From positions 1 through 49,593 of the forward strand of contig NZ_RDSD01000028.1 in NCBI RefSeq assembly GCF_003712195.1: a DNA stretch of 49,593 nucleotides, in the 5' to 3' direction. The translations under genes were made by a program, and so were the position numbers. Numbering within the stretch: the stretch's first letter is position 1; each line of letters begins with the position of its first letter. The stretch is from Proteiniphilum sp. X52. GTDB lineage: Bacteria; Bacteroidota; Bacteroidia; Bacteroidales; Dysgonomonadaceae. This document shows, in pieces, positions 9,258-35,430 of this stretch. Below the pieces are notes generated by a model. The model did not search any database. It worked only from the letters and a program-made list of their open reading frames with translations, and was not told where the DNA came from.

Positions 9258-9276
9258 ATTGAAAAAATTTAATCGT

Positions 9277-11061: not shown

Positions 11062-11085
11062 TCACATTAAAAAAATGATCCTACT

Positions 11086-12510: not shown

Positions 12511-12554
12511 GGATGAAATTAAGGATGAAATAAACTCTCCTTAATGAGAAATGG

Positions 12555-12587
12555 CTTTGCCGGTCTCTTTCCGGCAAAGTTATTTTT
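12555..12587 (+). terminator. Rho-independent terminator after the SusCD operon
   Basis: A perfect 9-bp stem (CTTTGCCGG / CCGGCAAAG) with a 7-base loop is followed by TTATTTTT. It lies 45 bases after the DUF4623-like gene and marks the end of the susC-susD-susC-susD unit. Confidence 0.85.
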
Positions 12588-12637
12588 CTGATCATTTGTT
12601 TTATCCGCGGTAACATTACTGCATAAACTTTCTGAAA

Positions 12638-14098
12638 ATGAGAAAAAAAATCTATTATTATATTCTATTTCTGTTCACGGCTTTTGTTATCTCCTGTAAG
12701 GATGACATCCCCGATACCGATACTCCCGATAATCCGGATCCGAAACCGACCGCTGAATTGATCTTCCCCAAAAAAGAGATGCGTTCGGTATGGATCACTA
12801 CCGCCTGGGGACTCGACTGGCCTATGGGTAAATATGGAATCCAAGCCCAGAAAGACCAATATATCCAATATCTCGACCGATTCGAAGAACTGAATATCAA
12901 CACGGTTATCTTCCAGGTTAAACCGATGGGAGATGCCTTCTATAACTCTCCTTACGAACCATGGAGTGTGTCCATTACCGGTGAAAGGGGGAAGGATCCG
13001 GGGTATGATGTGCTAAAGTTCCTCATCGACGAGGCACACAAAAGAAACATCGAATTCCATGCATGGATGAATCCTTATCGCATCGCCACCCGTGCCAGTA
13101 ACGCGACTCCCTATCCTGCTTTGCATCCATCGGTCAACCCCGAGTGGGTAGTCAGCCACGAGAAAATACAGATATACAATCCTGCTTTACCCGAAGTAAG
13201 GCAGCGTCTGGCTGATATAGTGAAAGACCTTATAACGAAATACAATGTAGACGGAATTCATTTTGACGACTATTTCTATCCTGATCCTTCTTCCGCAGGC
13301 ACAATGGTTTCCGATGCACCCGACTATCAGAAATATGGTGCGGGCTACAACTCTATTGAAGACTTCAGAAGAGCGAATGTGGATATGGCTATCAAGGGAG
13401 TACACGATGCAATTGTGGCCACCAAACCGGAGGTTATTTTTACCATTTCCCCCGCAGCCAGTCCCGATTATAATTTAAACACCCTGTTTGCCAATGTGCG
13501 CAAATGGTGCCAGGAAGGCTGGCTGGATGTGGTAATGCCGCAATTATACCAGGAGGTGGGCAACCCCTACAACGATTTTCAGGAAAGATTGGGCTGGTGG
13601 ACACAATACAGCTATACCGCCGCGCCGATGATAGGGCATGCCCTTTATAAATTCGGCGATGGTACAAGTCCCTCACCCTTTCAATCGACTGCCGAACTAC
13701 AACGACAGTTCGACTTGACCCGCAAAAACCAGAAAGTGAAGGGAAATGCCATGTATAGCGCCAGATTTGTACTTTTCAACAACATCAACATCACCGATAA
13801 ACTGGCTGATATTTACAAAAATCCGGCCGTTATTCCGTTTTTGGGACGTGAAGTGGCTCCTGCTCCAACAAAACCGACAAACGTGAAAATTGAAAACGGG
13901 CAATTGACCTGGACTAAACAGGGAAACCTCAGATCCGTAGTCTATTATTTCGCCGATGTCAAAAAAGAGGGTGTGGTACTGGCAATCACAGACAAAAATA
14001 GTCTTCCGGTGACTTCCCGGGGATCCTACTGTGTGACAACCATCAATGCGGACAATAGTGAGAGTGAACCATCAGAAATAGTGGAAATGAATAACTAA
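12638..14098 (+). CDS. GHL10-family (DUF187) glycoside hydrolase lipoprotein
   Basis: Lipoprotein of 486 aa: signal peptide with lipobox VISC, then a TIM-barrel of the glycosyl-hydrolase-like 10 family (about 45-360) and a C-terminal fibronectin-III-like domain (about 405-486). Family landmarks are REMRSVWI-type opening (here KKEMRSVWITTAWGLDWP), FHAWMNPYR, and GIHFDDYFYPDP near residue 206, where acidic residues line the barrel end. E. coli DigH (YddW), a member of this family, cleaves glycan strands of denuded peptidoglycan; that activity fits the genes that follow. It lies after a terminator, so it is a new transcription unit. The exact bond cut here is inference. Confidence 0.85.
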   Translation: MRKKIYYYILFLFTAFVISCKDDIPDTDTPDNPDPKPTAELIFPKKEMRSVWITTAWGLDWPMGKYGIQAQKDQYIQYLDRFEELNINTVIFQVKPMGDAFYNSPYEPWSVSITGERGKDPGYDVLKFLIDEAHKRNIEFHAWMNPYRIATRASNATPYPALHPSVNPEWVVSHEKIQIYNPALPEVRQRLADIVKDLITKYNVDGIHFDDYFYPDPSSAGTMVSDAPDYQKYGAGYNSIEDFRRANVDMAIKGVHDAIVATKPEVIFTISPAASPDYNLNTLFANVRKWCQEGWLDVVMPQLYQEVGNPYNDFQERLGWWTQYSYTAAPMIGHALYKFGDGTSPSPFQSTAELQRQFDLTRKNQKVKGNAMYSARFVLFNNINITDKLADIYKNPAVIPFLGREVAPAPTKPTNVKIENGQLTWTKQGNLRSVVYYFADVKKEGVVLAITDKNSLPVTSRGSYCVTTINADNSESEPSEIVEMNN

Positions 14099-14113
14099 TA
14101 TCTTTATATTTGA

Positions 14114-14121
14114 TATCTTTG
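14114..14121 (+). promoter_or_regulatory. Candidate Bacteroidetes -7 element upstream of the amidase gene
   Basis: TATCTTTG matches the Bacteroidetes -7 consensus TAnnTTTG. No clear TTTG -33 box at the expected distance was found. It would place a start site about 85 bases before the gene at 14214. Confidence 0.4.
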
Positions 14122-14213
14122 TCTGTGAGAGGAAGATTACTGTGTCAAAAATGATGCTGTTGTACTTGATCTCATTGTCCAAAAGAAAAAGATAAAAAAG
14201 ATAAAATAGCCGC

Positions 14214-17200
14214 ATGAGAAAATCCATTTTTATCCTGTTGATACTACTCATATCTTATTCTGCTTTTTCCCGGAATCTTGCCAATGATTCTCTGAAACAA
14301 AAGTTGAACAGTTCCCTCACCAATATCTATAAGGAGGTCATGCTGCGCCCCGGAAGGGTTACGGTGGACAGCATCGCGATGAATGAACGGGAAAAGAGTA
14401 TGGAGTTGCACACCAACCTGTCACTATCATACCTACCCATGCGGGAGAATACCGTACTGCATATCTACGACAGCGTGCGTTACCACCTCCCCCAGCCACA
14501 GAAAAAATATCACATAAGCGTTTTTTCCGACGGACAGGAGATCAGCCACCTGATCCCCAATTTCTTCCGGACCAAGCAGAAAGACAAAAACCGGATGATC
14601 GCGCACCGGGTGGAAAAACCGCTCGTCACCAATATCTCTTCTCCTGTGGGCGATTTCGACAAAGGATTGCAAAACAACCATATTGCACTGTGGCAAAGTC
14701 ATGGTTGGTATTACGAGCAGAAGCTGGGACGGTGGGAATGGCAGCGGGCACGTATCTTCCAAACGGTAGAAGACCTCTACACACAGAGTTATGTGCTTCC
14801 GTTCCTGGCACCGATGCTCGAGAACGCGGGAGCGAACGTGCTGATGCCGCGCGAACGGGATTATAACAAAACGGAACTGATCATAGACAATGATGATGTT
14901 GCCGGAGGAAACCGTTCCGGCCATTCAGGCCGATATGGCGATTCGCATTATGGGGAAATCGATGGAAAAGAAAGATGGCGAAATACCGATTCCGCAGGTT
15001 TTGCCAATCCAAAAGAGATCTATCGCGATGGTGAAAATCCGTTCAGGATGGGAACAGCCAGACAAATCAAGACGATCACCCGCGGTGAAGAGAGTCTCGC
15101 CGAATGGTGTCCCGATATTCCCGAAAAGGGAAAATATGGTGTCTATGTCTCCTATCAGACAGTCAGGAACAGTACAGACGACGCGCTCTACAGCGTGTAT
15201 CATGCCGGCGGAAGGACCGATTTCCGGGTCAACCAGCAAATGGGGGGCGGCACCTGGATATTTCTGGGATATTTTCATTTCGACGAAGGGAATAGTCATA
15301 AAATAACACTCACCAACAGGAGCAGCCGCGCAGGGAGGATTGTCATTGCCGATGCGGTAAAAATAGGCGGGGGAATGGGAAATATCGCAAGAATGCCCCA
15401 TCCCGACGGATTTGAAAAAGAAAATACAAAAAGTTCCGAAAAACAGGTCGCCAAGGAAACACTTATACCAAAGATCAACTATTCACCCGAGACAAGCGGC
15501 TACCCGCGCTATACCGAGGGAGCGCGTTACTGGATGCAGTGGGCGGGCGTACCCGACAGCGTGTACAACCGTACTGAAGGGAAGAATGATTACACCGACG
15601 ACTATGCGTCACGCGGCGCATGGGTGAACTGGCTGGCAGGCGGCTCGCCGGCACTGCCCAAAGAAGAGGGTCTCAATATCCCTGTGGACTTGGCTTTTGC
15701 TTTCCATACCGATGCGGGGACTTTCTGGGGAGACACCATCGTGGGAACACTCGGTATTTATATGACGCATTTTAACGACGGGGTATTCGAAAACGGAAGA
15801 TCGAGATGGGCCTCGCGCGATCTCTCCGAACTGGTGATGGAAGAGATCGTCAGCGATATACGACGCGAGTTCGAACCGGAATGGACACGCCGCCATCTCT
15901 GGAACCGTTCTTATGCCGAGGCGCGTATGCCTAACGTGCCGACCATGCTGCTGGAGTTGTTGTCCCATCAAAACTTCGCAGACATGCGCTACGGGCTGGA
16001 TCCCTCTTTCCGCTTTACCGTGAGCCGCTCCATCTACAAAGGGATGCTCCGCTTCCTGGCGAACCAGTACAACCGTCCCTACGTAGTACAACCCCTTCCT
16101 GTAAAAGAGTTCAGCACCCGCTTCTGCGGCGATACGGAAGTGGAATTGAAATGGCAGCCATCGCCCGATCCCGCGGAACCGTCAGCCACGCCCGCCCGGT
16201 ATATAGTCTATACCCGCCTCAACGGCGGAGGATTCGATAACGGTGTGATGGTGAAAAATAACCGTTATGTGGCATCCATACAAAAAGACACTGTTTACAG
16301 TTTTAAGGTAGTGGCTGTGAACGACGGTGGCATCAGCTTTCCCTCGGAAATACTATCCGTATGCCGTAAAACGGCCCAGAGAGGGGAAGCCTTAATCGTA
16401 AACGGATTTACCAGGGTGTCCGCTCCGTTCAGTTTCACTACCTCCCAAGACAGCATCGCCGGTTTCGCGGGAAATGTGGACAATGGCGTACCCTATATTG
16501 CCGACCATCATTTTATAGGCCATATGCATGAATTCCGCCGCGTGATACCATGGATGGATGACGACGCGTCGGGATTCGGTGACAGCGGCGCGAATTACGA
16601 AACTACCGCCATCGCGGGTAATACTTTCGATTACCCCTTTATTCACGGGCAGGCCTTCGCCAAAGCAGGCTATTCATTTGTATCCTCATCTGTCGCTGCT
16701 ATTGAAAATAAAAGCTTATCTTTAAACTCCTATGGTATTGTGGACTGGATACTGGGTAAACAACGGGAATGGTCGGTGGCCCGGGGAGCTAAACCTCCTC
16801 GCTTCAAAACATTCTCCCAATCCACCCAGGAAGCCATTACCGATTATTGTAACCATGGCGGCAACATCATCGTTAGCGGCGCTTTTGTGGGAACCGATCT
16901 GTGGGACAATCCCCATGCTTCGGCGCGAGACAGGGAGTGGGCGCAAAACACCCTCAGATACAAATGGCGCAACAATCATGGGGCAGTAACCGGAGAGGTC
17001 AAAGCGGTGGCTTCTCCCTTTCCCTCTCTTCACGGTAATTGGTCCTATTATAATACCCTGAACAGTGAAAGCTATGTGGTGGAATATCCCGATGCCGTTG
17101 AACCGGCAGACCAGAACGCCTTTACCGTCTTTCGCTATTCAGAGAATAACCTAAGCGCCGGCATCATATATAAAGGGGAACAATATGGCACCGCCATACT

Positions 17201-17282
17201 GGGTTTTCCGATAGAAGCCATAAAAGGGGCGGAGAACCGGAATAAATTGGTGAAAGGACTGGTGGATGCCCTCACTGATTAG
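14214..17282 (+). CDS. Secreted N-acetylmuramoyl-L-alanine amidase-like protein with inserted golvesin-type domain
   Basis: Exported protein of 1022 aa (signal peptide 1-25). The pieces of an amidase_3 zinc fold can be read in order but split: His163 in LWQSHGW, Glu186 in TVEDLYT, an RxxD motif at 213-216 (RERD), then after ~280 residues His498 in AFHTDAG and Glu581 in MLLELLSH followed by the family's closing helix (SRSIYKGMLRF). Between RxxD and His498 sits a beta-sandwich like the golvesin C-terminal/xanthan-lyase domain (about 222-395; IIDNDD start, YGVYVSYQ, IADAVKIGGG end). A fibronectin-III-like domain follows (about 640-720), then an alpha/beta C-terminal domain of unknown role (730-1022). 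Proteins of this type are often named xanthan lyase; the zinc and glutamate pattern argues for peptide cleavage from muramic acid. The residue assignment is mine and not structurally verified. Confidence 0.75.
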   Translation: MRKSIFILLILLISYSAFSRNLANDSLKQKLNSSLTNIYKEVMLRPGRVTVDSIAMNEREKSMELHTNLSLSYLPMRENTVLHIYDSVRYHLPQPQKKYHISVFSDGQEISHLIPNFFRTKQKDKNRMIAHRVEKPLVTNISSPVGDFDKGLQNNHIALWQSHGWYYEQKLGRWEWQRARIFQTVEDLYTQSYVLPFLAPMLENAGANVLMPRERDYNKTELIIDNDDVAGGNRSGHSGRYGDSHYGEIDGKERWRNTDSAGFANPKEIYRDGENPFRMGTARQIKTITRGEESLAEWCPDIPEKGKYGVYVSYQTVRNSTDDALYSVYHAGGRTDFRVNQQMGGGTWIFLGYFHFDEGNSHKITLTNRSSRAGRIVIADAVKIGGGMGNIARMPHPDGFEKENTKSSEKQVAKETLIPKINYSPETSGYPRYTEGARYWMQWAGVPDSVYNRTEGKNDYTDDYASRGAWVNWLAGGSPALPKEEGLNIPVDLAFAFHTDAGTFWGDTIVGTLGIYMTHFNDGVFENGRSRWASRDLSELVMEEIVSDIRREFEPEWTRRHLWNRSYAEARMPNVPTMLLELLSHQNFADMRYGLDPSFRFTVSRSIYKGMLRFLANQYNRPYVVQPLPVKEFSTRFCGDTEVELKWQPSPDPAEPSATPARYIVYTRLNGGGFDNGVMVKNNRYVASIQKDTVYSFKVVAVNDGGISFPSEILSVCRKTAQRGEALIVNGFTRVSAPFSFTTSQDSIAGFAGNVDNGVPYIADHHFIGHMHEFRRVIPWMDDDASGFGDSGANYETTAIAGNTFDYPFIHGQAFAKAGYSFVSSSVAAIENKSLSLNSYGIVDWILGKQREWSVARGAKPPRFKTFSQSTQEAITDYCNHGGNIIVSGAFVGTDLWDNPHASARDREWAQNTLRYKWRNNHGAVTGEVKAVASPFPSLHGNWSYYNTLNSESYVVEYPDAVEPADQNAFTVFRYSENNLSAGIIYKGEQYGTAILGFPIEAIKGAENRNKLVKGLVDALTD

Positions 17283-17583
17283 TTGATTGGATGATTGGGA
17301 AATTGAGAACTGAGAAATTAGAAATTAGAAATTAGAAATTAGAACTTCGAGATCTAAATGTGATCTGATCAGTTATAAATTGGATAATGGAACTGTGTAC
17401 TCGCAAATTGCTACTTTGAACTGTGTACTGGGAAATTGAGAACTGAGAAATTAGAAATTAGAACTGGGAAATTGAGAACTGGGAATTTAGAATTTAGAAC
17501 ATTAGTCACTACTACCCGAAAGATCGGGAGCAGTCATCCCGACATATCGGGATTGCCATATTAGCGACTTTAAAAAAAATCCT
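17283..17583. other. 301-bp intergenic region with AATTAGA-type heptamer repeats
   Basis: No gene is visible. Two stretches (17302-17343 and roughly 17436-17501) consist of 7-bp units such as AATTAGA, AACTGAG and GAACTGG; four AATTAGA units are exact at 17316-17343. A longer segment (GGGAAATTGAGAACTGAGAA) occurs in both stretches. The rest is unremarkable apart from the hairpin at 17536-17553. Confidence 0.85.
17536..17553. repeat. Small perfect inverted repeat upstream of the glycosyltransferase
   Basis: ATCCCGA and TCGGGAT flank a 4-base loop, with a further ATCGGGA copy just upstream at about 17523. It has no adjacent T run on either strand, so a terminator role is doubtful; a protein-binding site or leader hairpin is possible. 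Confidence 0.6.
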
Positions 17584-19050
17584 ATGCAAAAAATAAACGC
17601 ATTTATTCTTTTCACACAACCTGAACAGGCAAGAAAAACAGTAGAAGAACTTAAACAGTCGGAACTGATACAAAATATTTATCTGCTTACTCCGGATGAG
17701 ACTCTCACAACTTTGGAAGGTTGTGAAAAGATTATCATCGATAGACTGCAAAGCACCGAAACCATCAAAAAAATCGCCGGCAAATCTACTACCGCCTACA
17801 CATTGATCTATCAGAAACCGTCCGTGCTGAAACCGGGTTATTTTGCCCTCGAACGGATGACTCGCATTGCCGGAGATATGCAGGCGGGAATGGCATACGC
17901 CGACTATTACGCGGTGATCGACGGCGAAAAAAAGAATCACCCTGTGATAGATTATCAGGAAGGAAGCCTGCGCGATGATTTCAATTTCGGGTCGTTGCTG
18001 CTCTATAACGCAGACGCGCTCAAAGAGGCGGCAGCAAGGATGAATGAGGATTACCGATTCGCCGGACTATATGACTTGCGGCTCAAAGTCTCACAACACC
18101 ATCCGCTCATACATATCAATGAATACCTTTACACGGAGATAGAAGAGGACAAACGCGCGTCGGGAGAAAAAATATTCGATTACGTGGATCCCAAAAACCG
18201 GCAGGTGCAGATCGAGATGGAACAGGCCTGTACCCAACACCTGAAAGAAGTGGGCGCCTACCTGGCACCACAATTCGAAGAAATCGAATTCAACAAGGAT
18301 CATTTCGAATATGAAGCTTCGGTAATCATTCCGGTGCGCAACCGTGTAAAAACCATTAAAGACGCCATCGCATCCGTATTGAAACAGAAGACCGGCTTCC
18401 CGTTCAATCTCATTGTGGTGGATAACTACTCTACGGACGGCACCACAGAGGCTATCGACGGATTTAAAGATGATGAGCGACTGATACATATTATCCCGGA
18501 GAGGGACGACCTGGGCATAGGCGGATGCTGGAATCTGGGAGCACACCACCCCCAATGCGGGAAATTTGCCGTACAACTCGACAGTGACGATGTCTACAGC
18601 GGTGAAGATACTCTGCAAAAAATTGTCGACGCCTTCTACGAACAGCAGTGCGCCATGGTGGTAGGCACCTACCGGATGACCAACTTCCATATGGAGGAGA
18701 TTCCACCGGGCATTATCGACCATCGCGAATGGACACCCGATAACGGCCGGAATAACGCTTTGCGCATCAACGGGCTGGGAGCCCCCCGCGCGTTCTATAC
18801 GCCGGTACTGCGCGATATCAAAGTGCCCAACACCAGCTATGGTGAGGATTATGCCCTGGGATTGAATATCTCACGGCGCTACCAGATAGGCCGCATTTAT
18901 GATGTGCTTTACCTCTGCCGCCGTTGGGAGGATAATAGTGACGCGTCGCTCGATATAGTGAAAATGAACGCACATAACACCTATAAAGACAGGATCAGGA
19001 CATGGGAATTACAGGCAAGGAAGAAATTAAGAGTGAAGAATGAAGAATGA
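17584..19050 (+). CDS. Family 2 glycosyltransferase (GT-A fold)
   Basis: Predicted cytoplasmic glycosyltransferase of 488 aa without signal peptide or membrane segment. The N-terminal half (1-240) is unlike known domains to me. The GT-A domain starts at about 248 with ASVIIPVRNR, continues with VVDNYSTDGT, has the metal-binding acidic motif LDSDD near residues 331-335 and the catalytic-base region GEDYALG near 420. Acceptor and donor cannot be read. It sits between peptidoglycan hydrolase genes, an odd place for a synthetic enzyme; it may modify or re-use a cell-wall sugar (inference). The last codons and the stop lie within a 7-bp tandem repeat, so the C-terminal tail KVKNEE-type end may be recent and non-functional. 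Confidence 0.85.
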   Translation: MQKINAFILFTQPEQARKTVEELKQSELIQNIYLLTPDETLTTLEGCEKIIIDRLQSTETIKKIAGKSTTAYTLIYQKPSVLKPGYFALERMTRIAGDMQAGMAYADYYAVIDGEKKNHPVIDYQEGSLRDDFNFGSLLLYNADALKEAAARMNEDYRFAGLYDLRLKVSQHHPLIHINEYLYTEIEEDKRASGEKIFDYVDPKNRQVQIEMEQACTQHLKEVGAYLAPQFEEIEFNKDHFEYEASVIIPVRNRVKTIKDAIASVLKQKTGFPFNLIVVDNYSTDGTTEAIDGFKDDERLIHIIPERDDLGIGGCWNLGAHHPQCGKFAVQLDSDDVYSGEDTLQKIVDAFYEQQCAMVVGTYRMTNFHMEEIPPGIIDHREWTPDNGRNNALRINGLGAPRAFYTPVLRDIKVPNTSYGEDYALGLNISRRYQIGRIYDVLYLCRRWEDNSDASLDIVKMNAHNTYKDRIRTWELQARKKLRVKNEE

Positions 19051-19106
19051 AGAGTGAAAAGTGAAAAGTGAAGAGTGAAGAGTGAAAAGTGAAGAGTGAA
19101 GAATGA
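19030..19106 (+). repeat. Heptamer array, 11 units of AGAGTGA/AAAGTGA/AGAATGA
   Basis: Eleven consecutive 7-bp units run through the stop codon of the glycosyltransferase and into the intergenic region before the SpoIID gene. Units differ by A/G transitions only. Confidence 0.95.
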
Positions 19107-19155
19107 CAGTCAACAACCCACAATCAATTGGCAGTTAATAATTGGTATTTAAAAT

Positions 19156-20478
19156 ATGGACGCACCGCTGATTCATGTAGGCATATTATTGCAACAGCAA
19201 AAAATTGATTTTTCGCTGCCTGACGGCTATAAGTCGAAGGGCCGGGAAATAGCGCCGGGAGATTATTCGGTTGAAATCTCGGGGGAAAAGATCCTTTTCA
19301 ACGGGGAGATATCCGATGAACTCGTTTTCGAAGCCGATGATCCGCATCATAATGCTTTCGGATTGAAAAATGTGATCATCGGCGTGCAATTTCACTGGGA
19401 ACGAAAAGAAGATCAATATTTTTTGGGCAGCCTGAAATTTATCGTGGAAAACGGCAGTCTCACGGCAATTAACATCGTTTCATTAGAAGATTACCTCACC
19501 AGTGTGATCTCATCCGAAATGAGCGCTACAAGTTCCGAAGAGTTGCTGAAAGCACATGCTGTCATCTCCCGAAGCTGGCTGCTGGCGCAGATACAAAAGA
19601 GACAATCTCTTGGAAATTCAGAAACCGTTTACCGGACTTGGTTTGAGACACCCGCAGAAATAGTCCGTTGGTACGACCGGGAAAATCACCATCGGTTCGA
19701 CGTCTGTGCCGACGACCACTGCCAGCGCTACCAGGGAATCACCCGTCAATCCACCGAATTGGTAAAAAAGGTGATTCAGGAAACATGGGGGGAAGTCCTT
19801 TTCTATGACGGTACCATTTGCGATGCCCGCTTCTCAAAGTGTTGCGGCGGCGTGATGGAAACATTCGAGAACGTATGGGAACCCGTAATACATCCCTATC
19901 TGCAGGAAAAACCCGACTATACCGAAGGTTCCCCCCTACCCGACCTGACCATCGAAGAGAATGCGGAGGAATGGATCCGCGCTTCCCCTCCCGCTTTTTG
20001 TAACACTCAGGACGCAAATGTATTAAAACAAGTGCTGAACGATTATGACCGGGAAACAGCCGATTTTTACCGCTGGAAGATGACCTATTCCCAGAAAGAG
20101 TTATCGACGCTTATCAAAGAACGTTCCGGGATCGATTTTGGTGATATCATTGCCCTGCAACCGCTCGAAAGAGGTGCTTCCGGCCGTATCATCCGCCTGA
20201 AGATCATCGGCACCGAACGGGTGATGACGATAGGGAAAGAATTGGAAATACGGCGCACTTTATCCAAGTCGCATCTTTATAGTTCCGCATTCGTAACCGA
20301 TACTCAGGACGAAGACGAGAACGGAATCCCGCAGACATTCATACTCACCGGTGCCGGATGGGGTCATGGTGTGGGGTTATGTCAGATTGGCGCCGCCATC
20401 ATGGCGGAAAAAGGATACAGCTATAATGAGATACTGGCGCATTATTTCCCTGCATCTGAAACAATTACTAATTACTAA
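19156..20478 (+). CDS. SpoIID/LytB-domain protein (peptidoglycan glycan-strand lyase family)
   Basis: Protein of 440 aa of the SpoIID/LytB (amidase enhancer) family. Family landmarks are SLEDYLTSVISSEM with Glu121 in the SEM motif (equivalent to the essential Glu of SpoIID), ELLKAHAVISRSWLL right after, and the closing motif GAGWGHGVGLCQIGA near residue 400. Cys pairs (VCADDHC, SKCCGG) fall in the middle region where clostridial SpoIID binds zinc. SpoIID is a lytic transglycosylase that acts on glycan strands lacking stem peptides, the product of the amidase encoded two genes upstream. Oddly, no signal peptide is visible at the N-terminus (MDAPLIHVGILLQQQ), so it may act in the cytoplasm on imported material or leave the cell another way. 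The final codons are supplied by a heptamer repeat. Confidence 0.85.
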   Translation: MDAPLIHVGILLQQQKIDFSLPDGYKSKGREIAPGDYSVEISGEKILFNGEISDELVFEADDPHHNAFGLKNVIIGVQFHWERKEDQYFLGSLKFIVENGSLTAINIVSLEDYLTSVISSEMSATSSEELLKAHAVISRSWLLAQIQKRQSLGNSETVYRTWFETPAEIVRWYDRENHHRFDVCADDHCQRYQGITRQSTELVKKVIQETWGEVLFYDGTICDARFSKCCGGVMETFENVWEPVIHPYLQEKPDYTEGSPLPDLTIEENAEEWIRASPPAFCNTQDANVLKQVLNDYDRETADFYRWKMTYSQKELSTLIKERSGIDFGDIIALQPLERGASGRIIRLKIIGTERVMTIGKELEIRRTLSKSHLYSSAFVTDTQDEDENGIPQTFILTGAGWGHGVGLCQIGAAIMAEKGYSYNEILAHYFPASETITNY

Positions 20479-20519
20479 TTACCAATTACCAATTACCAAT
20501 TACTAATTACCAATTACTA
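20464..20519 (+). repeat. Heptamer array, 8 units of ATTACTA/ATTACCA (left arm)
   Basis: Eight consecutive 7-bp units overlap the SpoIID stop codon. An 18-base segment (20470-20487, repeated at 20498-20515) is the exact reverse complement of 20947-20964 on the far side of the four-helix-bundle gene. Confidence 0.95.
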
Positions 20520-20582
20520 ATGATTGGTTGGTTTATATCAGGAAAGGGATATTAGACTTATGACTAATTACAAGGGTTGATT

Positions 20583-20948
20583 ATGGTTCATCGTGAGAAA
20601 GAGAATATTATATTAGATAAGACATATAACTATGCGATAAGAATTGTGAAGTTATATCAGTATTTATGTAAAGAGAAAAAGGAATTTGAGTTATCTCGAC
20701 AAATTCTACGAAGTGGAACATCTATCGGTGCAAATGTCGAAGAGTCTGTCGGAGGGCATTCCCGAAAGGATTTTCTGGCCAAATTGGGCGTATCATACCG
20801 GGAAGCCCGTGAAACTCGTTTCTGGTTAAAATTATTGAGAGATACCAATTATATCTCTACAGAACAATGTGAAAGCTTGTTAGAAGATCTGGAGGAAATT
20901 ATCCGTATTATCACGGCAATTCAAAAAACCACAAAAAGCAATATCTAA
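20583..20948 (+). CDS. Four-helix-bundle protein (23S rRNA IVP / Avd-like family)
   Basis: Small protein of 121 aa, predicted all-helical. The pattern YNYAIRIVKLYQYL...FELSRQILRSGTSIGANVEE followed by KDFLAKLGVSYREARET and WLKLL is the signature of the S23 / intervening-sequence-protein family, which also contains Avd of diversity-generating retroelements. Members form positively charged pentameric barrels that bind nucleic acid; no catalytic activity is known. A TTG at 20577 would add two residues; the ATG at 20583 is preferred. The gene is unrelated to its peptidoglycan neighbours and is enclosed by inverted heptamer arrays, with its stop codon inside the right arm, so it looks like an inserted unit. 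Confidence 0.9.
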   Translation: MVHREKENIILDKTYNYAIRIVKLYQYLCKEKKEFELSRQILRSGTSIGANVEESVGGHSRKDFLAKLGVSYREARETRFWLKLLRDTNYISTEQCESLLEDLEEIIRIITAIQKTTKSNI

Positions 20949-20976
20949 TTGGTAATTAGTAATTTTTAATTGGTAA
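20949..20976 (+). repeat. Inverted heptamer array, 4 units (right arm)
   Basis: TTGGTAA, TTAGTAA, TTTTTAA, TTGGTAA run 7 bases each and are the reverse complement of the unit family at 20464-20519. The arm starts at the stop codon of the four-helix-bundle gene and ends 10 bases before the AmpG start. Confidence 0.9.
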
Positions 20977-20986
20977 TTTTCATAGT

Positions 20987-22303
20987 ATGAAATCAACACG
21001 CAATCCTTGGGCATGGATCCCCACCTTGTATTTTGCCGAAGGTTTACCCTACGTAGCGGTAATGGTCGTTTCGGTGGTTATGTACAAACGCTTCGGATTA
21101 TCTAATACCGAAATAGCCCTGTACACCAGCTGGCTCTACCTTCCATGGGTCATCAAACCCTTCTGGAGCCCGTTTGTGGATATCCTGAAAACCAAACGAT
21201 GGTGGATCGTATCCATGCAGCTGCTCATCGGCGCCGGATTCGCGGGTATCGCCTTTACCCTTCCCACCCCATTCTACCTGCAGGCATCACTCGCATTCTT
21301 CTGGCTGATGGCCTTCAGTTCCGCCACACACGACATCGCCGCCGACGGCTTTTACATGCTGGCGCTGGACGACTCTCAACAATCTTTCTTCGTCGGTATA
21401 CGCAGCACCTTCTATCGCCTCGCCTCCATCGCGGGACAGGGACTGCTGGTGATCCTGGCCGGATTCCTCGAGAAAAGTACCGGCAATATCCCATACGCGT
21501 GGAGCATTACCTTTTTCATTTTGGCGGGCCTGTTCATCGCTTTCTTCGCCTGGCACCGCTTTATTCTGCCCTACCCTGCAACCGATGCGGGAAAAGCCGC
21601 GCACACCCCGAAGGAGGTAATGACAGAGTTCGAGAACACATTCAAATCGTTTTTCACGAAGAAAGGGATCGGTTTGGCCATCGCCTTCATGCTCTTATAC
21701 CGACTGGCTGAAGCCATGTTGGTGAAGCTGGCATCACCTTTCCTGCTCGATGCCCGCGAAGTGGGCGGAGCGGGGTTAAATACTCAGGAGGTAGGTCTCG
21801 CCTACGGTACGGTCGGCGTGATATCCCTGACCCTTGGCGGCATCATAGGCGGCATCGTCGCGTCGCGTAAAGGATTAAAATACTGGCTTTGGCCTATGGC
21901 ACTGGCCATCACACTTCCCAATGCCGCTTATCTCCTGTTGGCGATATACCAACCCCAAAGTTTCATTTGGATAAATGTGGCAGTGGCCATCGAACAACTC
22001 GGTTACGGGTTTGGCTTTACCGCCTATATGCTCTATCTGATCTATTTCTCTCAGGGCGAACACAAGACTGCGCACTACTCCATCTGTACGGGATTCATGG
22101 CACTGGGAATGATGCTCCCCGGTATGGCGGCCGGCTGGATTCAGGAACAACTGGGATATGTGAATTTCTTTATCTTTATCCTGATCGCGACTATTCCCAC
22201 CTTCCTGTTGATCCCCTTTATGAAAGTCGACAAGGATTTTGGGAAAGCAAAGAAAGAAACACCAGCAGCAGAAGAAGAATCAGCAGAAGAAGAAGCTGAG
22301 TAA
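20987..22303 (+). CDS. ampG: AmpG-type major facilitator permease for muropeptides
   Basis: Inner membrane transporter of 438 aa with about twelve hydrophobic segments. The opening (NPWAWIPTLYFAEGLPY) and the first loop (SWLYLPWVIKPFWSPFVD) match the AmpG branch of the MFS, which brings GlcNAc-anhydroMurNAc muropeptides into the cytoplasm in Enterobacteria. The charged tail after residue 410 is rich in Glu and Ala and is probably cytosolic. Close neighbours NamZ, MurT, MurK and MurQ support a cell-wall salvage role, and Tannerella forsythia is known to have an AmpG involved in muropeptide uptake. Whether substrate is anhydro or ordinary muropeptide, or a free sugar, cannot be read from sequence. 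Confidence 0.85.
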   Translation: MKSTRNPWAWIPTLYFAEGLPYVAVMVVSVVMYKRFGLSNTEIALYTSWLYLPWVIKPFWSPFVDILKTKRWWIVSMQLLIGAGFAGIAFTLPTPFYLQASLAFFWLMAFSSATHDIAADGFYMLALDDSQQSFFVGIRSTFYRLASIAGQGLLVILAGFLEKSTGNIPYAWSITFFILAGLFIAFFAWHRFILPYPATDAGKAAHTPKEVMTEFENTFKSFFTKKGIGLAIAFMLLYRLAEAMLVKLASPFLLDAREVGGAGLNTQEVGLAYGTVGVISLTLGGIIGGIVASRKGLKYWLWPMALAITLPNAAYLLLAIYQPQSFIWINVAVAIEQLGYGFGFTAYMLYLIYFSQGEHKTAHYSICTGFMALGMMLPGMAAGWIQEQLGYVNFFIFILIATIPTFLLIPFMKVDKDFGKAKKETPAAEEESAEEEAE

Positions 22304-22314
22304 TCAGATAGTAG

Positions 22315-22326
22315 GTCACGCGTGAC
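22315..22326. promoter_or_regulatory. 12-bp perfect palindrome upstream of namZ
   Basis: GTCACGCGTGAC lies 11 bases after the AmpG stop; a further GGGTGAC follows at about 22335. It could be an operator, but no regulator gene is nearby. Confidence 0.3.
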
Positions 22327-22373
22327 AGTGTCTTGGGTGACATATACCGCGGATGATAATCCCGTGGCGATAT

Positions 22374-22401
22374 TTCGTAATTCGTAATTCGTAATTCGTA
22401 A
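22374..22401 (+). repeat. Heptamer array, 4 exact units of TTCGTAA
   Basis: Four identical 7-bp units end 12 bases before the NamZ start codon. Confidence 0.95.
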
Positions 22402-22413
22402 TTTAAAAAAGAC

Positions 22414-23658
22414 ATGAATAATTTGAGGTTAATAACAGCATTTACCATCTGTGGTCTACTCATTTCCTTCTCCTCTTCCGCCCAGAAAATAAACGTGAAG
22501 AGCGGGATCGAAGTGCTGAAAGAAACCAACTTTAAAATATTGCAGGGGAAACGAGTGGGCCTGATCACTAATCCGACGGGAGTCGATAACAACCTGAAAT
22601 CGACCATCGATATCCTGTATGAAGCGCCCAATGTGCAACTGGTGGCACTTTATGGCCCGGAACACGGCGTACGCGGTGATGTGCATGCCGGCGATAAGAT
22701 AGAATCATTCACTGACCCCAATACCGGGGCACCTGTCCATTCCCTCTACGGAGCTACCCGAAAGCCCACCCAAGAGATGCTGGAAGGCGTGGATGTGCTG
22801 GTGTATGATATCCAGGATATAGGATGCCGGTCTTATACCTATATATCCACCATGTATCTGGCTATGCAGGCCGCCGCGGAAAACAACATCGAATTCGTGG
22901 TGCTCGACCGCCCCAACCCGTTGGGCGGCCTGAAAGTGGAAGGCAACCTGGTGGAAGAAGGTTTCTTCTCTTTCGTAAGCCAACTGCGGATCCCTTATCT
23001 CTACGGCCTTACCTGCGGAGAATTGGCAGAAATGATCATCGGGGAAAAGATGATCCCTCATCCTTGTAAGCTGACGGTGGTAAAGATGAAAAAATGGCGC
23101 CGGAAAATGAATTTCGAAGACACAGGGTTGCCCTGGGTTCCCACCTCACCCCATATACCGTTCGCCCATTCAGCCTATTTTTATCCTGTTTCGGGCATCA
23201 TGGGTGAACTGGGATATATGTCTATCGGCGTGGGTTATACGCTTCCCTTTGAGATGTTCGCGGCCGAATGGATCAATGCCGAGGAGTTTGCCCGGGCATT
23301 GAATGCGAAGCGACTGCCGGGAGTAACGTTCCGTCCTATCCACCTGAAGCCCTATTATTCGGTTGGGCAAGGAAGTAACTTCCAGGGAGTACAGATATAT
23401 CTGACCGGTTTCCGACAAGCACGCCTGTCGGATATCCAGTTCCATGTAATGGAGGTAGCCGCGCAACTTTACCCCGACAAGAAGGTGTTTGATCATGCTT
23501 CCGAAAACCGTTTCGACATGTTCGACAAAGTGAGCGGAAGTGATTTTATCCGACTGGAATTTTCCAAAAACCACCGTTTCGCTGAAATTCAATCCTACTG
23601 GACAAAAGATGAAGAAGCATTCAGGAAATTGTCGAAGAAGTATTATCTTTACAGATAA
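22414..23658 (+). CDS. namZ: NamZ-family exo-beta-N-acetylmuramidase (DUF1343, GH171)
   Basis: Exported enzyme of 414 aa with signal peptide (cleavage after FSSSAQ, about residue 24). The family hydrolyses the terminal MurNAc from the non-reducing end of peptidoglycan disaccharides and chains lacking peptides; it was defined from Bacillus subtilis NamZ and is also known in Tannerella forsythia. Landmarks: RVGLITNPTG near 45, LYGPEHGVRG with Glu83, LVYDIQDIGCRSYTY near 130, VLDRPNPLGG near 165 and the beta-hairpin-rich C-terminal domain. It would release free MurNAc in the periplasm for the MurT-MurK-MurQ route encoded next. Assigning catalytic function to Glu83 is inference from its conservation. 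Confidence 0.93.
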   Translation: MNNLRLITAFTICGLLISFSSSAQKINVKSGIEVLKETNFKILQGKRVGLITNPTGVDNNLKSTIDILYEAPNVQLVALYGPEHGVRGDVHAGDKIESFTDPNTGAPVHSLYGATRKPTQEMLEGVDVLVYDIQDIGCRSYTYISTMYLAMQAAAENNIEFVVLDRPNPLGGLKVEGNLVEEGFFSFVSQLRIPYLYGLTCGELAEMIIGEKMIPHPCKLTVVKMKKWRRKMNFEDTGLPWVPTSPHIPFAHSAYFYPVSGIMGELGYMSIGVGYTLPFEMFAAEWINAEEFARALNAKRLPGVTFRPIHLKPYYSVGQGSNFQGVQIYLTGFRQARLSDIQFHVMEVAAQLYPDKKVFDHASENRFDMFDKVSGSDFIRLEFSKNHRFAEIQSYWTKDEEAFRKLSKKYYLYR

Positions 23659-23685
23659 TATAGCTCGCAGGATAATGACTTCGGC

Positions 23686-23706
23686 GACAATGCGCTTCGC
23701 GCGATA
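23686..23706 (-). repeat. REP-like palindromic element
   Basis: The reverse complement, TATCGCGCGAAGCGCATTGTC, matches 47541-47561 at 19 of 21 bases. Its core GCGC-GAA-GCGC can form a tight hairpin. It lies 11 bases before the murT start. Confidence 0.65.
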
Positions 23707-23717
23707 GATAAAAGATA

Positions 23718-24914
23718 ATGGATTTTGAATTTGAAAATGATATGAATACAATCACCACACCCCAGCAGAGCGGCCGGTTGCTCTCACTCGATATTCTTCG
23801 CGGAATCACCATCGCCGGTATGATTATGGTTAACAATGCCGGTTCATGGAGCGCTGTCTATACTCCTCTCCGCCACGCGCATTGGCATGGGCTCACCCCC
23901 ACCGACCTGGTATTCCCGTTCTTTATGTTTATCATGGGCGTATCCACTTTCATGTCTTTGAGAAAATTCCACTTCGAACCCTCTAAGGCGGCTATCTGGA
24001 AAATTGTACGGCGCGCCGTCCTTATTTTCGTGATCGGATTGGCGCTGGGCTGGTTCGGACAACTGTGCAGGGGACTGGCTTCGGGAGAGTCCTTCACACA
24101 AGCTGCCACCCATTTCAATACCCTCCGCATATTAGGCGTACTGCAACGATTGGGGCTGGCTTATGGCTTTGCAGCACTGATCGCCATATTTGTAAAAAGC
24201 AAGTATCTGCCCTGGGTGATTGCCTTGCTGTTATTGGGATATTTCCTCATCCTACAATTCGGGAAAGGTTTTGAGATGTCGGAACAGAATATCATCGCCG
24301 TAGTCGACCGCGCCTTATGGGGTACTGATCATATGTACAAAGATACCGCGCCGTCAGGAGAACGGATTGCGTTCGATCCGGAAGGTCTGCTCAGCACACT
24401 TCCTTCCATTGCCCATGTACTGATCGGCTTCCTCTTCGGCAAGCTTATCGTTGACAACAAGGAGAATCATACCCGCGTGGAAAAACTGCTGATCTGGGGA
24501 ACCGTACTTGCATTTGCCGGATTACTGTTACAATATGGCTGCCCTATCAACAAGAAAATATGGAGTCCTACTTTCGTCCTTGCAACCACAGGTTTCGCCG
24601 CCCAACTGTTGGGATTGCTGATCTGGATCATCGATATCAATAAAAAAGAGCGATGGAGCCGGTTTTTCCATGCATTCGGTGTGAATCCGCTTATCGTGTA
24701 TGTGTTCGCGGGAGTATTTGCCACCCTGCTTTCCAACATCAGGTTTACAGTACAGGGGGAAGCTGTTTCCATCAAAGGGTTTGTCTATGAAATGTTACTG
24801 CGTCCCTGGGCGGGTGATTATTTCGGATCGTTGCTTTACGCGCTCCTGTTTGTCGCTGCTTGTTGGCTGTTCGGATATATCCTCTACAAACGGAATATCT
24901 ACATCAAATTATGA
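23718..24914 (+). CDS. murT: MurT/NagX-like inner membrane protein (COG4299, DUF5009)
   Basis: Polytopic membrane protein of 398 aa. The start LSLDILRGITIAGMIMVNNAG and HGLTPTDLVFPFFMFIMGVS are hallmarks of the COG4299 family, related to heparan-alpha-glucosaminide N-acetyltransferase. The order of this gene, a BadF-type kinase and MurQ matches what I recall of the murT-murK-murQ operon of Tannerella forsythia, where MurT is reported as the inner membrane MurNAc transporter; the same family is called NagX near chitin genes. Role here is therefore MurNAc entry or acetyl transfer, not resolvable by eye. About ten hydrophobic segments are visible. An in-frame ATG at 23742 is an alternative start and would remove eight acidic residues. 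Confidence 0.75.
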   Translation: MDFEFENDMNTITTPQQSGRLLSLDILRGITIAGMIMVNNAGSWSAVYTPLRHAHWHGLTPTDLVFPFFMFIMGVSTFMSLRKFHFEPSKAAIWKIVRRAVLIFVIGLALGWFGQLCRGLASGESFTQAATHFNTLRILGVLQRLGLAYGFAALIAIFVKSKYLPWVIALLLLGYFLILQFGKGFEMSEQNIIAVVDRALWGTDHMYKDTAPSGERIAFDPEGLLSTLPSIAHVLIGFLFGKLIVDNKENHTRVEKLLIWGTVLAFAGLLLQYGCPINKKIWSPTFVLATTGFAAQLLGLLIWIIDINKKERWSRFFHAFGVNPLIVYVFAGVFATLLSNIRFTVQGEAVSIKGFVYEMLLRPWAGDYFGSLLYALLFVAACWLFGYILYKRNIYIKL

Positions 24915-24990
24915 TAGCCAATTTCATTGCGATCACGCGTTATGGGCGACAATTAAAAGGAATTTACCAATTATCCATGGATTTTGCCAT

Positions 24991-25830
24991 ATGCAAGAAC
25001 TATTAATAGCCGACAGCGGCGCTACAAAATCAGACTGGTGTCTTACAAGAAACGGAGAGATAACACACCGTTTTTCCGGGAAAGGTATTAGCCCTGTATA
25101 TCAGACACAAGAAGAGATCGCTGAAGAGATACGGCTAAATGTGTATCCTCTCTTAAAAGAGGCCGATATAGAAGCGATTTATTTCTATGGAGCAGGGTGT
25201 ATCCCTGAGAAAACGGGTCTGGTACGCGATGCCATTCGTCAATCATTTCCCGTTGACACTGTCCAAGTCTACAGTGACCTGATAGCGGCCACTCACAGCC
25301 TTTGTGGACGCGGATCCGGAATTGCCTGTATCCTGGGAACCGGAAGTAATTCCTGTGAATGGGATGGTACAAGTATCGTGAACCAGATATCTCCCCTCGG
25401 TTTTATTTTGGGTGACGAAGGAAGTGGTGCCGCATTGGGAAAAAACCTGATAGGAGATGCTTTGAAAAATCAACTTACGGAAGGGCTGAAAGAAACATTA
25501 CTCGACGAGTATGATCTTACACCCGCGCTAATTATTGACAAAGTATACCGTCAACCTTTCCCTAATCGTTTTCTGGCAAGCCTCTGCCCGTTTCTGCACA
25601 AACATATCGAAGACCCGACTATCCGCAGAGTCGTTACCCGCAGTTTTTCCGCTTTTTTTGAAAGAAACGTGATGCAATACGATTATCATAATAATAAAGT
25701 TAATTTTGTGGGCTCTATAGCTTGGTATTTTTCCGAACCGTTGAAGGAGGTCGCGGCAGAGAAAGGGATTGAGTTGGGAACAATATCCCAATCACCTATG
25801 CCGGGGCTGATTGAATTCCATAATCACTAA
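24991..25830 (+). CDS. murK: MurNAc kinase-like protein of the BadF/BadG ATPase family
   Basis: Cytoplasmic sugar kinase of 279 aa in the ASKHA fold. Phosphate-1 motif IADSGATKSDW (residues 6-16), the catalytic Asp96 in SDLIAA, and phosphate-2 GTGSNS (116-121) are all present, as is GDEGSGAALG (about 138-147). The expected reaction is MurNAc + ATP to MurNAc-6-phosphate, the substrate of MurQ encoded next; GlcNAc is a possible second substrate. The frame stays open back to 24700 over the murT end, but the ATG at 24991 matches the family N-terminus and is preferred. It lies 76 bases after murT. Confidence 0.85.
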   Translation: MQELLIADSGATKSDWCLTRNGEITHRFSGKGISPVYQTQEEIAEEIRLNVYPLLKEADIEAIYFYGAGCIPEKTGLVRDAIRQSFPVDTVQVYSDLIAATHSLCGRGSGIACILGTGSNSCEWDGTSIVNQISPLGFILGDEGSGAALGKNLIGDALKNQLTEGLKETLLDEYDLTPALIIDKVYRQPFPNRFLASLCPFLHKHIEDPTIRRVVTRSFSAFFERNVMQYDYHNNKVNFVGSIAWYFSEPLKEVAAEKGIELGTISQSPMPGLIEFHNH

Positions 25831-25993
25831 CGACAAATTACAAACAGTAACGACAAATTACGAATTTAACTATGCCAACCAGTTATCCAGATTTGCACTA
25901 CCTGTCGCAACGCGTCGGGACGTGCACATTTAACTACGCTTCGCTCCGTTGAACGTTGTTTGTCACATTATATTAATCATCACATCAACAGTC
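25831..25993. other. Intergenic region between murK and murQ with a short direct repeat
   Basis: TAACGACAAATTAC occurs twice with a 20-bp period (25828-25841 and 25848-25861), overlapping the murK stop. The rest holds no gene. The AAATTACGAATTT end resembles the heptamer arrays elsewhere but is not periodic. Confidence 0.6.
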
Positions 25994-26815
25994 ATGTCTT
26001 TTACTAAAATAACAGAGCAATCATCGCTCTATGACAACTTAGAACAAAAATCCGTTCTCGAAATTCTTACAGAGATCAATCAAGAAGATCAGAAAGTGGC
26101 GCTTGCCGTACAGAAAACCATTCCCGAAATAGAGAAATTGGTGACCGGCATCGTGGCAAGAATGCAGCGAGGCGGACGTCTTTTCTATATCGGCGCGGGT
26201 ACAAGCGGGAGGCTTGGAGTGCTTGACGCCTCCGAGATCCCACCAACCTTCGGCATGCCCGACACTTATGTGATCGGGTTGATTGCCGGAGGAGACGTCG
26301 CGTTACGTAATCCGGTGGAAGCAGCCGAAGACAACCTTGAGAAAGCCTGGGAAGAGCTTATGGCACATAAGATCGACCAAAACGATGTGTTGGTCGGTAT
26401 TGCAGCTTCTGGCACTACTCCTTATGTGATAGGGGCGTTACGCCGGGCCCGTGAAAAGGGTATCCTTACGGCAGCCATCTGCTGTAATCCCGACTCTCCC
26501 GTGGCAGCTGAAGCGGAGATCAGGATAGAACCCATTGTCGGGCCGGAATATGTGACGGGCAGTACCCGGATGAAGGCCGGGACAGCCCAGAAGATGGTGC
26601 TCAATATGATCACAACAAGTACCATGATCCAGCTTGGGAGGGTAAAAGGCAACCGTATGGTAAATATGCAACTCACCAATCAAAAACTGGTGGACAGAGG
26701 CACACGTATGATCGTCGATGAACTGGGGCTGTCGTACGAACAGGCTAAAAACCTGCTATTACTCCATGGATCAGTCAAAAATGCCATCAACAGTTATCAC
26801 TCTAAAAAGCAATAA
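25994..26815 (+). CDS. murQ: N-acetylmuramic acid 6-phosphate etherase
   Basis: Cytoplasmic enzyme of 273 aa that splits the D-lactyl ether of MurNAc-6-phosphate, giving GlcNAc-6-phosphate and D-lactate. It has the SIS fold and the family signature YIGAGTSGRLGVLDASEIPPTFG, with Glu81 in SEIPP and Glu112 in VEAAEDN at the places of the two catalytic glutamates of E. coli MurQ (Glu83, Glu114). The GSTRMKAGTAQKM segment near 195 completes the signature. The open frame begins earlier (25949), but the ATG at 25994 gives the family N-terminus. This gene is the firmest evidence that the locus feeds on or recycles muramic acid. Confidence 0.97.
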   Translation: MSFTKITEQSSLYDNLEQKSVLEILTEINQEDQKVALAVQKTIPEIEKLVTGIVARMQRGGRLFYIGAGTSGRLGVLDASEIPPTFGMPDTYVIGLIAGGDVALRNPVEAAEDNLEKAWEELMAHKIDQNDVLVGIAASGTTPYVIGALRRAREKGILTAAICCNPDSPVAAEAEIRIEPIVGPEYVTGSTRMKAGTAQKMVLNMITTSTMIQLGRVKGNRMVNMQLTNQKLVDRGTRMIVDELGLSYEQAKNLLLLHGSVKNAINSYHSKKQ

Positions 26816-26841
26816 CACTATACTAAATAAGATTAAGCTAT

Positions 26842-27183: not shown

Positions 27184-27200
27184 ATGGTATATTCCCTATT

Positions 27201-27305
27201 TTCCTAGTTCCTAGTTCCCAGTTCTAAGTTCCAAGTTCTAAGTTCCAAGTTCTAAGTTCCAAGTTCTAAGTTCCAAGTTCTAAGTTCTCATTTCCAAGTT
27301 CTTAT
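27201..27305 (+). repeat. Heptamer array, 15 units of TTCTAAG/TTCCAAG
   Basis: Fifteen consecutive 7-bp units, the longest array in the window. Two unit versions alternate strictly through the middle (TTCTAAG, TTCCAAG), giving a 14-bp higher-order repeat. The array ends 10 bases before the next start codon. Confidence 0.95.
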
Positions 27306-27315
27306 CCAAATAATT

Positions 27316-28146
27316 ATGACCAAAAATATAACCCTCTTCCTTTTCATTGCATTATCCCCATCCCTGGTAGCACAGGAGATAGGATACAAAACTATTTCCG
27401 ACATTCCCTATTATGCGGAAGAAATGCTTCGACAAGACAGCTATATGGGAGAGCGATGCCTGCTCGATATTTACTATCCGGTAAATAAAAAAGATTTTAC
27501 CACGGTCGTCTGGTTTCACGGTGGTGGTCTGACAGGAGGCAATAAAGAACTTCCCGAGGCACTGAAAAATAAAGGTCTGTGCATTGTCGGCGTCAACTAT
27601 AGGCTTGCCCCGGGGGTAAAAGCACCCGCTTATATTGAAGATGCGGCAGCAGCGGTGGCTTGGGTCTTTAAAAATATCGGGAGATATGGAGGTGACAGTT
27701 CGCGGATATTTGTATCGGGGCATTCTGCCGGAGGATATCTGTCCATGATGATTGGACTGGATAAACACTATCTCGCAGTTCACGGCATCGACGCCGACAG
27801 TATTGCCGGTCTGATCCCTTTCAGCGGGCAGGCCATCACCCACTTCACCATACGAAAGGAGAACGGTATCGACGACAAACAACCGGTTATAGATAAATAT
27901 GCCCCGCTGTTCCATGTCCGCTCCGATGCCCCTCCCATGCTGCTTATCACGGGAGACCGCGAGCTGGAAATGCTGGGTCGCTATGAAGAGAACGCCTATC
28001 TTGCCCGCATGATGCAAATAGCAGGACATCAGGATACCCGCTTGCTCGAACTGCAAGGTTATGGGCATGACATGGCATATCCCGCATTTCCTTTGATGTT
28101 AAATGAGATAACACGCTTAAACAGGGACAAAAAACGATTTCCCTGA
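27316..28146 (+). CDS. Exported alpha/beta hydrolase (esterase-like)
   Basis: Protein of 276 aa with a signal peptide (about 1-20, ending LVAQ). It has the alpha/beta-hydrolase core: oxyanion motif HGGGLTGGN near 72, nucleophile elbow GHSAGG with Ser near 136, an acidic member around GDRELE near 216, and His in GYGHDMAYP near 254. The HGGG form points to the hormone-sensitive-lipase/BD-FAE branch, which includes carbohydrate deacetylases. It might remove O-acetyl groups from peptidoglycan or other glycans before hydrolysis (inference from context). It is the last gene of the salvage cluster. Confidence 0.85.
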   Translation: MTKNITLFLFIALSPSLVAQEIGYKTISDIPYYAEEMLRQDSYMGERCLLDIYYPVNKKDFTTVVWFHGGGLTGGNKELPEALKNKGLCIVGVNYRLAPGVKAPAYIEDAAAAVAWVFKNIGRYGGDSSRIFVSGHSAGGYLSMMIGLDKHYLAVHGIDADSIAGLIPFSGQAITHFTIRKENGIDDKQPVIDKYAPLFHVRSDAPPMLLITGDRELEMLGRYEENAYLARMMQIAGHQDTRLLELQGYGHDMAYPAFPLMLNEITRLNRDKKRFP

Positions 28147-35328: not shown

Positions 35329-35430
35329 TCGATAAGTGCGGGATTGAAATTTAAATCCAGATCCATCAAAAAATGGCTAAAAAACAATGGATGAAAAAAT
35401 TCAAAACAGTTTCTTAGCGTTTCCTACTTA

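Follow-up and report, generated by a model that had tools for sequence, protein, structure and literature searches.

We analysed a 49,593-nucleotide stretch of DNA from Proteiniphilum sp. X52 (NZ_RDSD01000028.1; below, the window or contig C27), which is the whole of one of the 96 contigs of a 4.43 Mb genome and carries a locus whose role in the utilisation of peptidoglycan and N-acetylmuramic acid (MurNAc) is well supported. A first-pass annotation had described a one-strand run of susC-susD-susC-susD, wall hydrolases and Mur genes. Using Pfam and NCBIfam profile scans, we find all of the genes it named, and the gene set discussed here lies throughout on the + strand. SusC1, SusD2, NamZ2, GH9CE4 and similar names are our own labels; NamZ2 denotes a NamZ paralogue 33-35% like the NamZ of the window.

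The run opens with SusC1 (34-3672), a TonB-dependent transporter with an N-terminal STN extension, and the lipoprotein SusD1 (3703-5433; the open reading frame opens at 3685, with 3703 as the likely start). SusC2 (5484-9257) is a second transporter with an extension of the SusC1 type and a different barrel, followed by the lipoproteins SusD2 (9277-11061; frame opening at 9238, likely start 9277) and DUF4623 (11086-12510; Pfam E 2e-178). Next come a GHL10 lipoprotein (12638-14098), a secreted 1022-residue protein with Golvesin_C and fn3 matches (14214-17282), a GT2 glycosyltransferase-like protein in which we saw no signal peptide by eye (17584-19050), a SpoIID/LytB-family protein (19156-20478; TIGR02669 172 bits, cut-off 83), a 23S-IVP-type four-helix gene inserted in the operon (20577-20948), an AmpG-family permease (20987-22303), a NamZ-family exo-beta-N-acetylmuramidase (22414-23658), a MurT-like membrane protein of the NagX family (23718-24914), a MurK-type kinase (24991-25830) and the MurQ etherase (25994-26815; frame opening at 25949, likely start 25994). 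On the 3' side of MurQ lie a 113-residue protein without a Pfam match, an alpha/beta hydrolase that matches an esterase family (27316-28146) and a FemAB protein. The first-pass annotation had placed the locus at 12638-28146; its genes hold, but its limits do not, as it begins past the SusCD genes and ends on the alpha/beta hydrolase. It also lacked the DUF4623, GT2 and IVP-type genes.

NamZ and MurQ had been called certain members of their families, and on their profile scores this membership is firm: NamZ has both Pfam domains, and MurQ reaches 327 bits with TIGR00274 (cut-off 302). AmpG (TIGR00901, E 3e-52, 178 bits) and the MurT-like protein (NagX model NF046061, E 3e-39, 135 bits) score under their model cut-offs of 350 and 480. 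Judged by eye, the N-termini of NamZ and of the 1022-residue protein carry signal peptides, and those of SusD1, SusD2, DUF4623 and GHL10 carry lipoboxes.

The 1022-residue protein had been labelled Amidase_3-like. At E 0.001 it matches no Amidase_3 profile; its only Pfam matches are Golvesin_C and fn3, and a profile search with it gave a weak match to the amidase CwlD (E 0.2). Despite this, the label is borne out by the predicted fold. A full-length model built from 12 sequences had low quality around the active site (pLDDT 71.1) and is superseded by a model of the 497-residue core (residues 136-632), predicted from a 75-sequence alignment with pLDDT 89.5. In a Foldseek search with this core, the N-acetylmuramoyl-L-alanine amidases CwlD (7rag), 4rn7, Rv3717 and AmiC follow the top match, together with CBM6/35 carbohydrate-binding modules; the amidase matches have E-values of 2.5e-6 to 3e-5, are partial in length and reach a TM-score by target of at most 0.62. 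The top match itself is a xanthan lyase, which speaks against an amidase. We rejected xanthan lyase as the function, since the profile match to it covers only ~95 positions at the C-terminal end and amidases come next in Foldseek. H163, E186, H498 and E581 are invariant in 12/12 and in 75/75 sequences, and going by the family motif they would be the three zinc ligands and the catalytic Glu. Compared with Amidase_3 amidases, then, the window protein is alike in predicted fold and at these four positions, and it differs in a carbohydrate-binding-module-like domain inserted between the ligands and in the missing profile match.

The GHL10 protein (Pfam E 1e-64, domain over residues 44-395) is nearest to Cwp19 (E 5e-80), and the profile scan gave a weak PgaB match too. 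Its lipobox is followed by C-KDD, which we presume to bear on surface exposure; going by this motif, the lipoprotein is probably surface-exposed. Cwp19 of Clostridioides difficile is a lytic transglycosylase with published activity (PMC6016235). The two proteins have the GHL10 domain in common; the window protein is a lipoprotein, and Pfam found no CWB2 repeats in it.

The kinase carries the S-P-L motif and scores higher with 8ow9 and 8oqw, both S-P-L, than with 8ow7, which has R-A-G there; its score with 8oqk is similar to that with 8ow7. S-P-L marks MurK of Tannerella forsythia, and R-A marks K1058 (PMC10465942). By eye, 33 of 34 SpoIID orthologues have no signal peptide (the start of the last, in L143, could not be judged), so the protein is probably not a wall-facing step. 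On these N-termini we rejected it as a wall-facing enzyme, though export by another route may be possible.

Regulator, signalling part and exchangeable cassette

Positions 1-77 of the window match exactly the final 77 nucleotides of contig C28, whose last genes are thyA, dfrA, an extracytoplasmic function (ECF) sigma factor gene and fecR. We place ECF-FecR before SusC1 because this overlap is exact, because SusC2 is continuous with SusD1 in the window, and because in the related genome G364 ECF-FecR runs directly into SusC1. Against this placement stands a second match of the C28 end, 97.8% over 91 nucleotides, to the sequence that precedes SusC2. Among relatives, thyA-dfrA lies directly against the amidase gene, leaving the site empty, in six loci (L035, L037, L038, L039, L042 and L070), and an ECF gene follows dfrA, filling it, in five (L040, L043, L166, L171 and L181). 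The ECF-FecR-SusCD block recurs on the side of the amidase gene that faces dfrA.

Both SusC proteins have an STN domain by Pfam. Window positions 1-776 and 5451-6226 are 90% identical, which covers the signal peptide, STN and a carboxypeptidase-like domain; over the rest, SusC1 and SusC2 share 7-31 identities per 60 columns. To this N-terminal part, the 12 other matches listed in the same genome at E 1e-40 are 41-51% identical; of the SusC proteins in G364, the two in the locus are 87 and 79% identical to it, and the other ten 40-52%. The extension is found in 10 of 55 SusC1/SusC2-type proteins (L033, L040, L041, L043, L164 twice, L166, L167, L168 and L171), all ten from Proteiniphilum-like genomes and adjacent to this operon. 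In L165, L169, L170 and L172, SusC1 orthologues of 75-80% identity have no extension and were not seen beside the operon; orthologues linked to the operon in other groups, and in L052 and G339 (L173), also have none. By sequence comparison, the two SusC proteins share a locus-specific, presumed signalling part at the N-terminus, in front of different barrels.

Aligned with G364, the window is ~90% identical from 1 to 6532 and ~92% again from 14197. Over the 7.7 kb between (6533-14196), where the window has most of SusC2 together with SusD2, DUF4623 and GHL10, G364 instead encodes a different barrel and a different SusD, a NamZ paralogue and a CE4 protein. The seams lie ~350 codons into susC2 and just before the amidase start. 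This exchangeable importer block with its own regulator is the new part; the first-pass annotation had seen none of the regulator, the signalling part and the swap.

The IVP gene has no match in 80 named loci, including the 24 in which both of its neighbours, SpoIID and AmpG, are present, and ~436 nucleotides including it are absent from G364. Intergenic arrays of 7-bp units, with differing unit sequences, lie at 17299-17500, 19029-19106, 20462-20521, 22374-22403, 27201-27301 and 35429-35482; four of the five covered arrays are in or at the edge of stretches unaligned with G364, and the array at 27201 has relatives on C28.

Neighbours of the SusCD pairs in relatives

To see how regularly SusCD accompanies the operon, we surveyed 80 named loci found through the amidase gene, with Proteiniphilum and Petrimonas at the head of the list, and counted the 48 that have at least 9 kb upstream. 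The 32 omitted comprise 9 with the operon and 23 without, among them L033, which has SusCD1. A locus was scored as having the operon if two or more other operon genes lie downstream of the amidase gene. We find SusD within 10 kb upstream in 13/23 loci with the operon (9 on the same strand, 4 on the opposite one) and in 3/25 without (2 and 1); in downstream windows, taken as a control, it occurs in 0/55. The difference is significant (Fisher p 0.0018), also on the same strand only (9/23 versus 2/25, p 0.016). The SusCD-operon link is more than chance.

We also searched for orthologues of SusD1 without regard to the operon, and found them in 13 of 101 genomes of the family and 8 of 393 of the order, the own genome being in both. 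The best 13 candidates per genome were scored in the family search, the best 3 in the order search and the best 4 in the SusD2 search; because only these few were scored, further SusD copies can be missed. With the own genome excluded, and with G410 (family) and G281 (order) left outside the counts since their contigs end soon after SusD1, the amidase gene lies near SusD1, within ~13 kb on the same strand, in 8/11 family genomes (G364, G377, G375, G371, G394, G390, G412 and G339) and near it in 2/6 from the order (G059 and G301), together 10/17. A picked set of 22 genomes, chosen partly for SusCD near the amidase gene, has 8/10 SusD1 near the operon with the own genome included, and we draw no rate from it. 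In G412, which belongs to another genus, the genes of the locus and their order are as in the window, except that GH9/CE4 and FecR genes stand between the SusCD pairs and the IVP gene is missing, so the arrangement is not a chance one. In Prevotella cerevisiae, SusCD1 follows NlpC/P60, MR_MLE and transglutaminase-core genes; the first two resemble the YkfC/YkfB route for wall peptides.

Several observations weigh against a tight bond between import and salvage. In ten of the 23 operon loci, the 10 kb upstream contain no SusD, and the surveyed loci are related by descent and not independent, the SusD model having been built partly from them. No amidase gene was found in the stretch seen for 7/17 SusD1 genomes (G302, G423, G430, G506, G380, G396 and G353), of which G423, G430 and G506 count as misses even though only 5 to 10 kb of contig follow SusD1 there; G302 has two other operon-type genes near SusD1, and the run near SusD1 in G380 holds SusCD', GH9/CE4 and, at its end, an S13 D-Ala-D-Ala carboxypeptidase. 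In the picked set, G168 and G169 have no amidase gene beside SusD1. For SusD2, only 2 (G133 and G019) of the 7 other orthologues found in 295 genomes have operon genes; SusD2 stands with DUF4623 and GHL10 in G059, G301 and G019, and in the first two the SusCD2-DUF4623-GHL10 set is without operon genes. Solved relatives of SusD2 are weak matches, and one is a sialic-acid binder. SusCD pairs kept without the downstream genes, which the first-pass annotation had counted against its reading, are thus found in part, in the 7 SusD1 genomes and for SusCD2 in G059 and G301; yet the linkage exceeds chance. On these neighbour counts, we take SusCD1 to be a frequent partner of the operon and SusCD2-DUF4623-GHL10 to be a looser module. 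DUF4623 accompanies SusCD2 and GHL10 in L045, L135, L139 and L171 with L177, and more distantly in L140.

Two further patterns concern the same loci. L043 and L045, from one genome (G156, the same as G371), are two amidase loci, one behind SusCD1 and one behind SusCD2-DUF4623-GHL10-GH9/CE4, through duplication or a mixed bin. Proteins of the GH9-CelD_N-polysaccharide deacetylase type recur behind SusCD pairs in L041 (7469-9940), L045 (7362-9935), L052, L165, L171 and L173, their domains having been scanned in L041 and the others assigned by similarity.

Proposed working and rival explanations

Collectively, our data argue that this is probably a peptidoglycan-fragment utilisation locus, in which a known Bacteroidales core for MurNAc and muropeptide salvage is joined to an accessory outer-membrane import block that has a regulator of its own and exchangeable barrels. 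The first-pass claim of a complete peptidoglycan/muramic-acid utilisation locus stands for utilisation, on families, fold and gene order, and probably fails for the SpoIID step. We infer that the SusCD pairs take up wall fragments.

From the computed families, fold, residues, gene order, regulator position and swap, we infer a substrate, a localisation for each step and a regulation by substrate that could work as follows. By analogy with Cwp19, the surface GHL10 lipoprotein would cut released wall glycan, and SusCD1 and SusCD2 would bind and import the fragments. In the periplasm, the secreted Amidase_3-fold enzyme, to judge from its computed fold and residues, may strip stem peptides, and NamZ would release MurNAc. 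AmpG and MurT would bring fragments and MurNAc inward, where MurK would phosphorylate MurNAc and MurQ would yield N-acetylglucosamine-6-phosphate for NagA to take on. SpoIID and GT2 do not suit such an outside-in chain, and so count against it. Domains and position suggest that a loaded SusC could use its STN extension to signal to the upstream-encoded FecR and ECF sigma factor, switching the block on. The barrels and hydrolases behind the signalling part may be exchanged between relatives, perhaps matching different wall chemistries.

A bolder extension is possible, and we offer it tentatively. Across relatives, the ECF sigma-FecR-STN unit would be fixed between dfrA and the amidase gene, and barrels and wall-cutting enzymes from different origins would be spliced in by recombination inside susC, letting relatives specialise in walls from different bacteria with one regulator and one MurNAc core; the SpoIID-type protein would then be cytosolic and act on imported fragments.

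The SusCD block might instead serve another amino-sugar polymer, such as chitin, chitosan, poly-N-acetylglucosamine or a host glycan, and share with the salvage operon only the catabolism of N-acetylglucosamine and MurNAc. The GH9-CE4 and CE4 proteins in the cassettes of relatives would fit such a substrate, as would the weak PgaB match of GHL10, the SusCD2 module on its own in G059 and G301, the ten operon loci that lack an upstream SusD, and the published Urechidicola locus discussed below, for which the authors leave the origin of the substrates open (PMC10199937). We consider this unlikely, given the enrichment of SusD over two controls, the closeness of GHL10 to a lytic transglycosylase, the NamZ paralogue in the G364 cassette, the genes for NlpC/P60 and MR_MLE next to SusCD1 in P. 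cerevisiae and the D-Ala-D-Ala carboxypeptidase that ends the G380 run.

Alternatively, the locus could recover only the cell's own turnover fragments, with SusCD merely improving their recapture. The GHL10 lipoprotein of surface type, the two SusCD pairs and the sigma/anti-sigma pair point to a substrate from outside the cell, and exchange of the cassette is hard to square with a constant self substrate; although relatives do have the core operon without SusCD nearby, and murA and murB are present in the genome, we regard plain recycling as improbable.

If the locus does feed on wall fragments, as we favour, it bears on a broader question: dead bacteria are a large food source, and how wall fragments pass the outer membrane in Bacteroidota is little worked out in the open-licence literature. 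SusCD1 recurs with the MurNAc operon in several groups and is a testable importer candidate, and the barrel swap, with the signalling part kept constant, amounts to a natural experiment on how a SusC may change substrate without loss of control.

Elsewhere in the window, RND efflux genes (AcrB, HlyD and OEP types) lie at 37342-43163 on the - strand, adjoined at 43419-45409, also on the - strand, by genes for a LytTR response regulator and a His_kinase protein.

Relation to known systems

The core operon is known. In T. forsythia, Tanf_08345-08385 form one transcript of xanthane lyase, gtf, gtf, lytB, ampG, ybbC, murT, murK and murQ (PMC5388701), and window positions 14214-26815 hold the same set by name and order, minus one gtf and plus the inserted IVP gene; here 'xanthane lyase' is equated with the Golvesin amidase and ybbC with NamZ by name and position, from the published order and not from T. 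forsythia DNA. The larger set of wall hydrolases, put forward as new in the first-pass annotation, is already part of that operon (PMC5388701). MurK with S-P-L and the MurQ family are alike as well. The window has GHL10, DUF4623 and two SusCD pairs in front, and in the excerpts of PMC5388701 and PMC7670621 no SusCD is named for the T. forsythia operon; the regulator is ECF sigma/FecR in the window and the hybrid regulator GppX in T. forsythia. The parallel that had been drawn to Tannerella as a MurNAc auxotroph does not carry over: murA and murB, absent in T. forsythia, are both above cut-off and adjacent on contig C96, so that no Tannerella-like auxotrophy is expected, and we ruled it out. 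The genome also has two nagA genes above cut-off.

Urechidicola, the source of the nearest published import arrangement, belongs to the Flavobacteriaceae. A flavobacterial Urechidicola symbiont of a mussel has a locus of ~27 kb with two susCD pairs, murQ, nagB, ampG, an amidase, a carboxypeptidase, an epimerase and GH3, 18, 171 and 10, most of which the authors assign to murein metabolism (PMC10199937). Compared by description only, the two susCD pairs, murQ, ampG, GH171 and the amidase are alike; nagB, GH3, GH18 and a deoR regulator are named there, and MurTK, SpoIID, GHL10 and a cassette swap are not reported in the excerpt. Two TonB importers beside salvage genes, also claimed as new, were therefore already in print, and both the operon (PMC5388701) and its combination with two SusCD pairs (PMC10199937) have published precedents. 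In the open-licence literature, searched mostly by listing, we found a murein-type SusCD locus described in this one genome paper, and no study that tests such an importer. The core operon is thus known and its pairing with SusCD is in print once elsewhere; what is new is the modular, exchangeable, self-regulated import front. With Sus-type polysaccharide utilisation loci, this front shares the tandem susC-susD genes, a surface lipoprotein glycanase and the ECF sigma/FecR/STN set; it differs from them in a substrate that would be peptidoglycan and in a cassette swapped behind a fixed signalling part.

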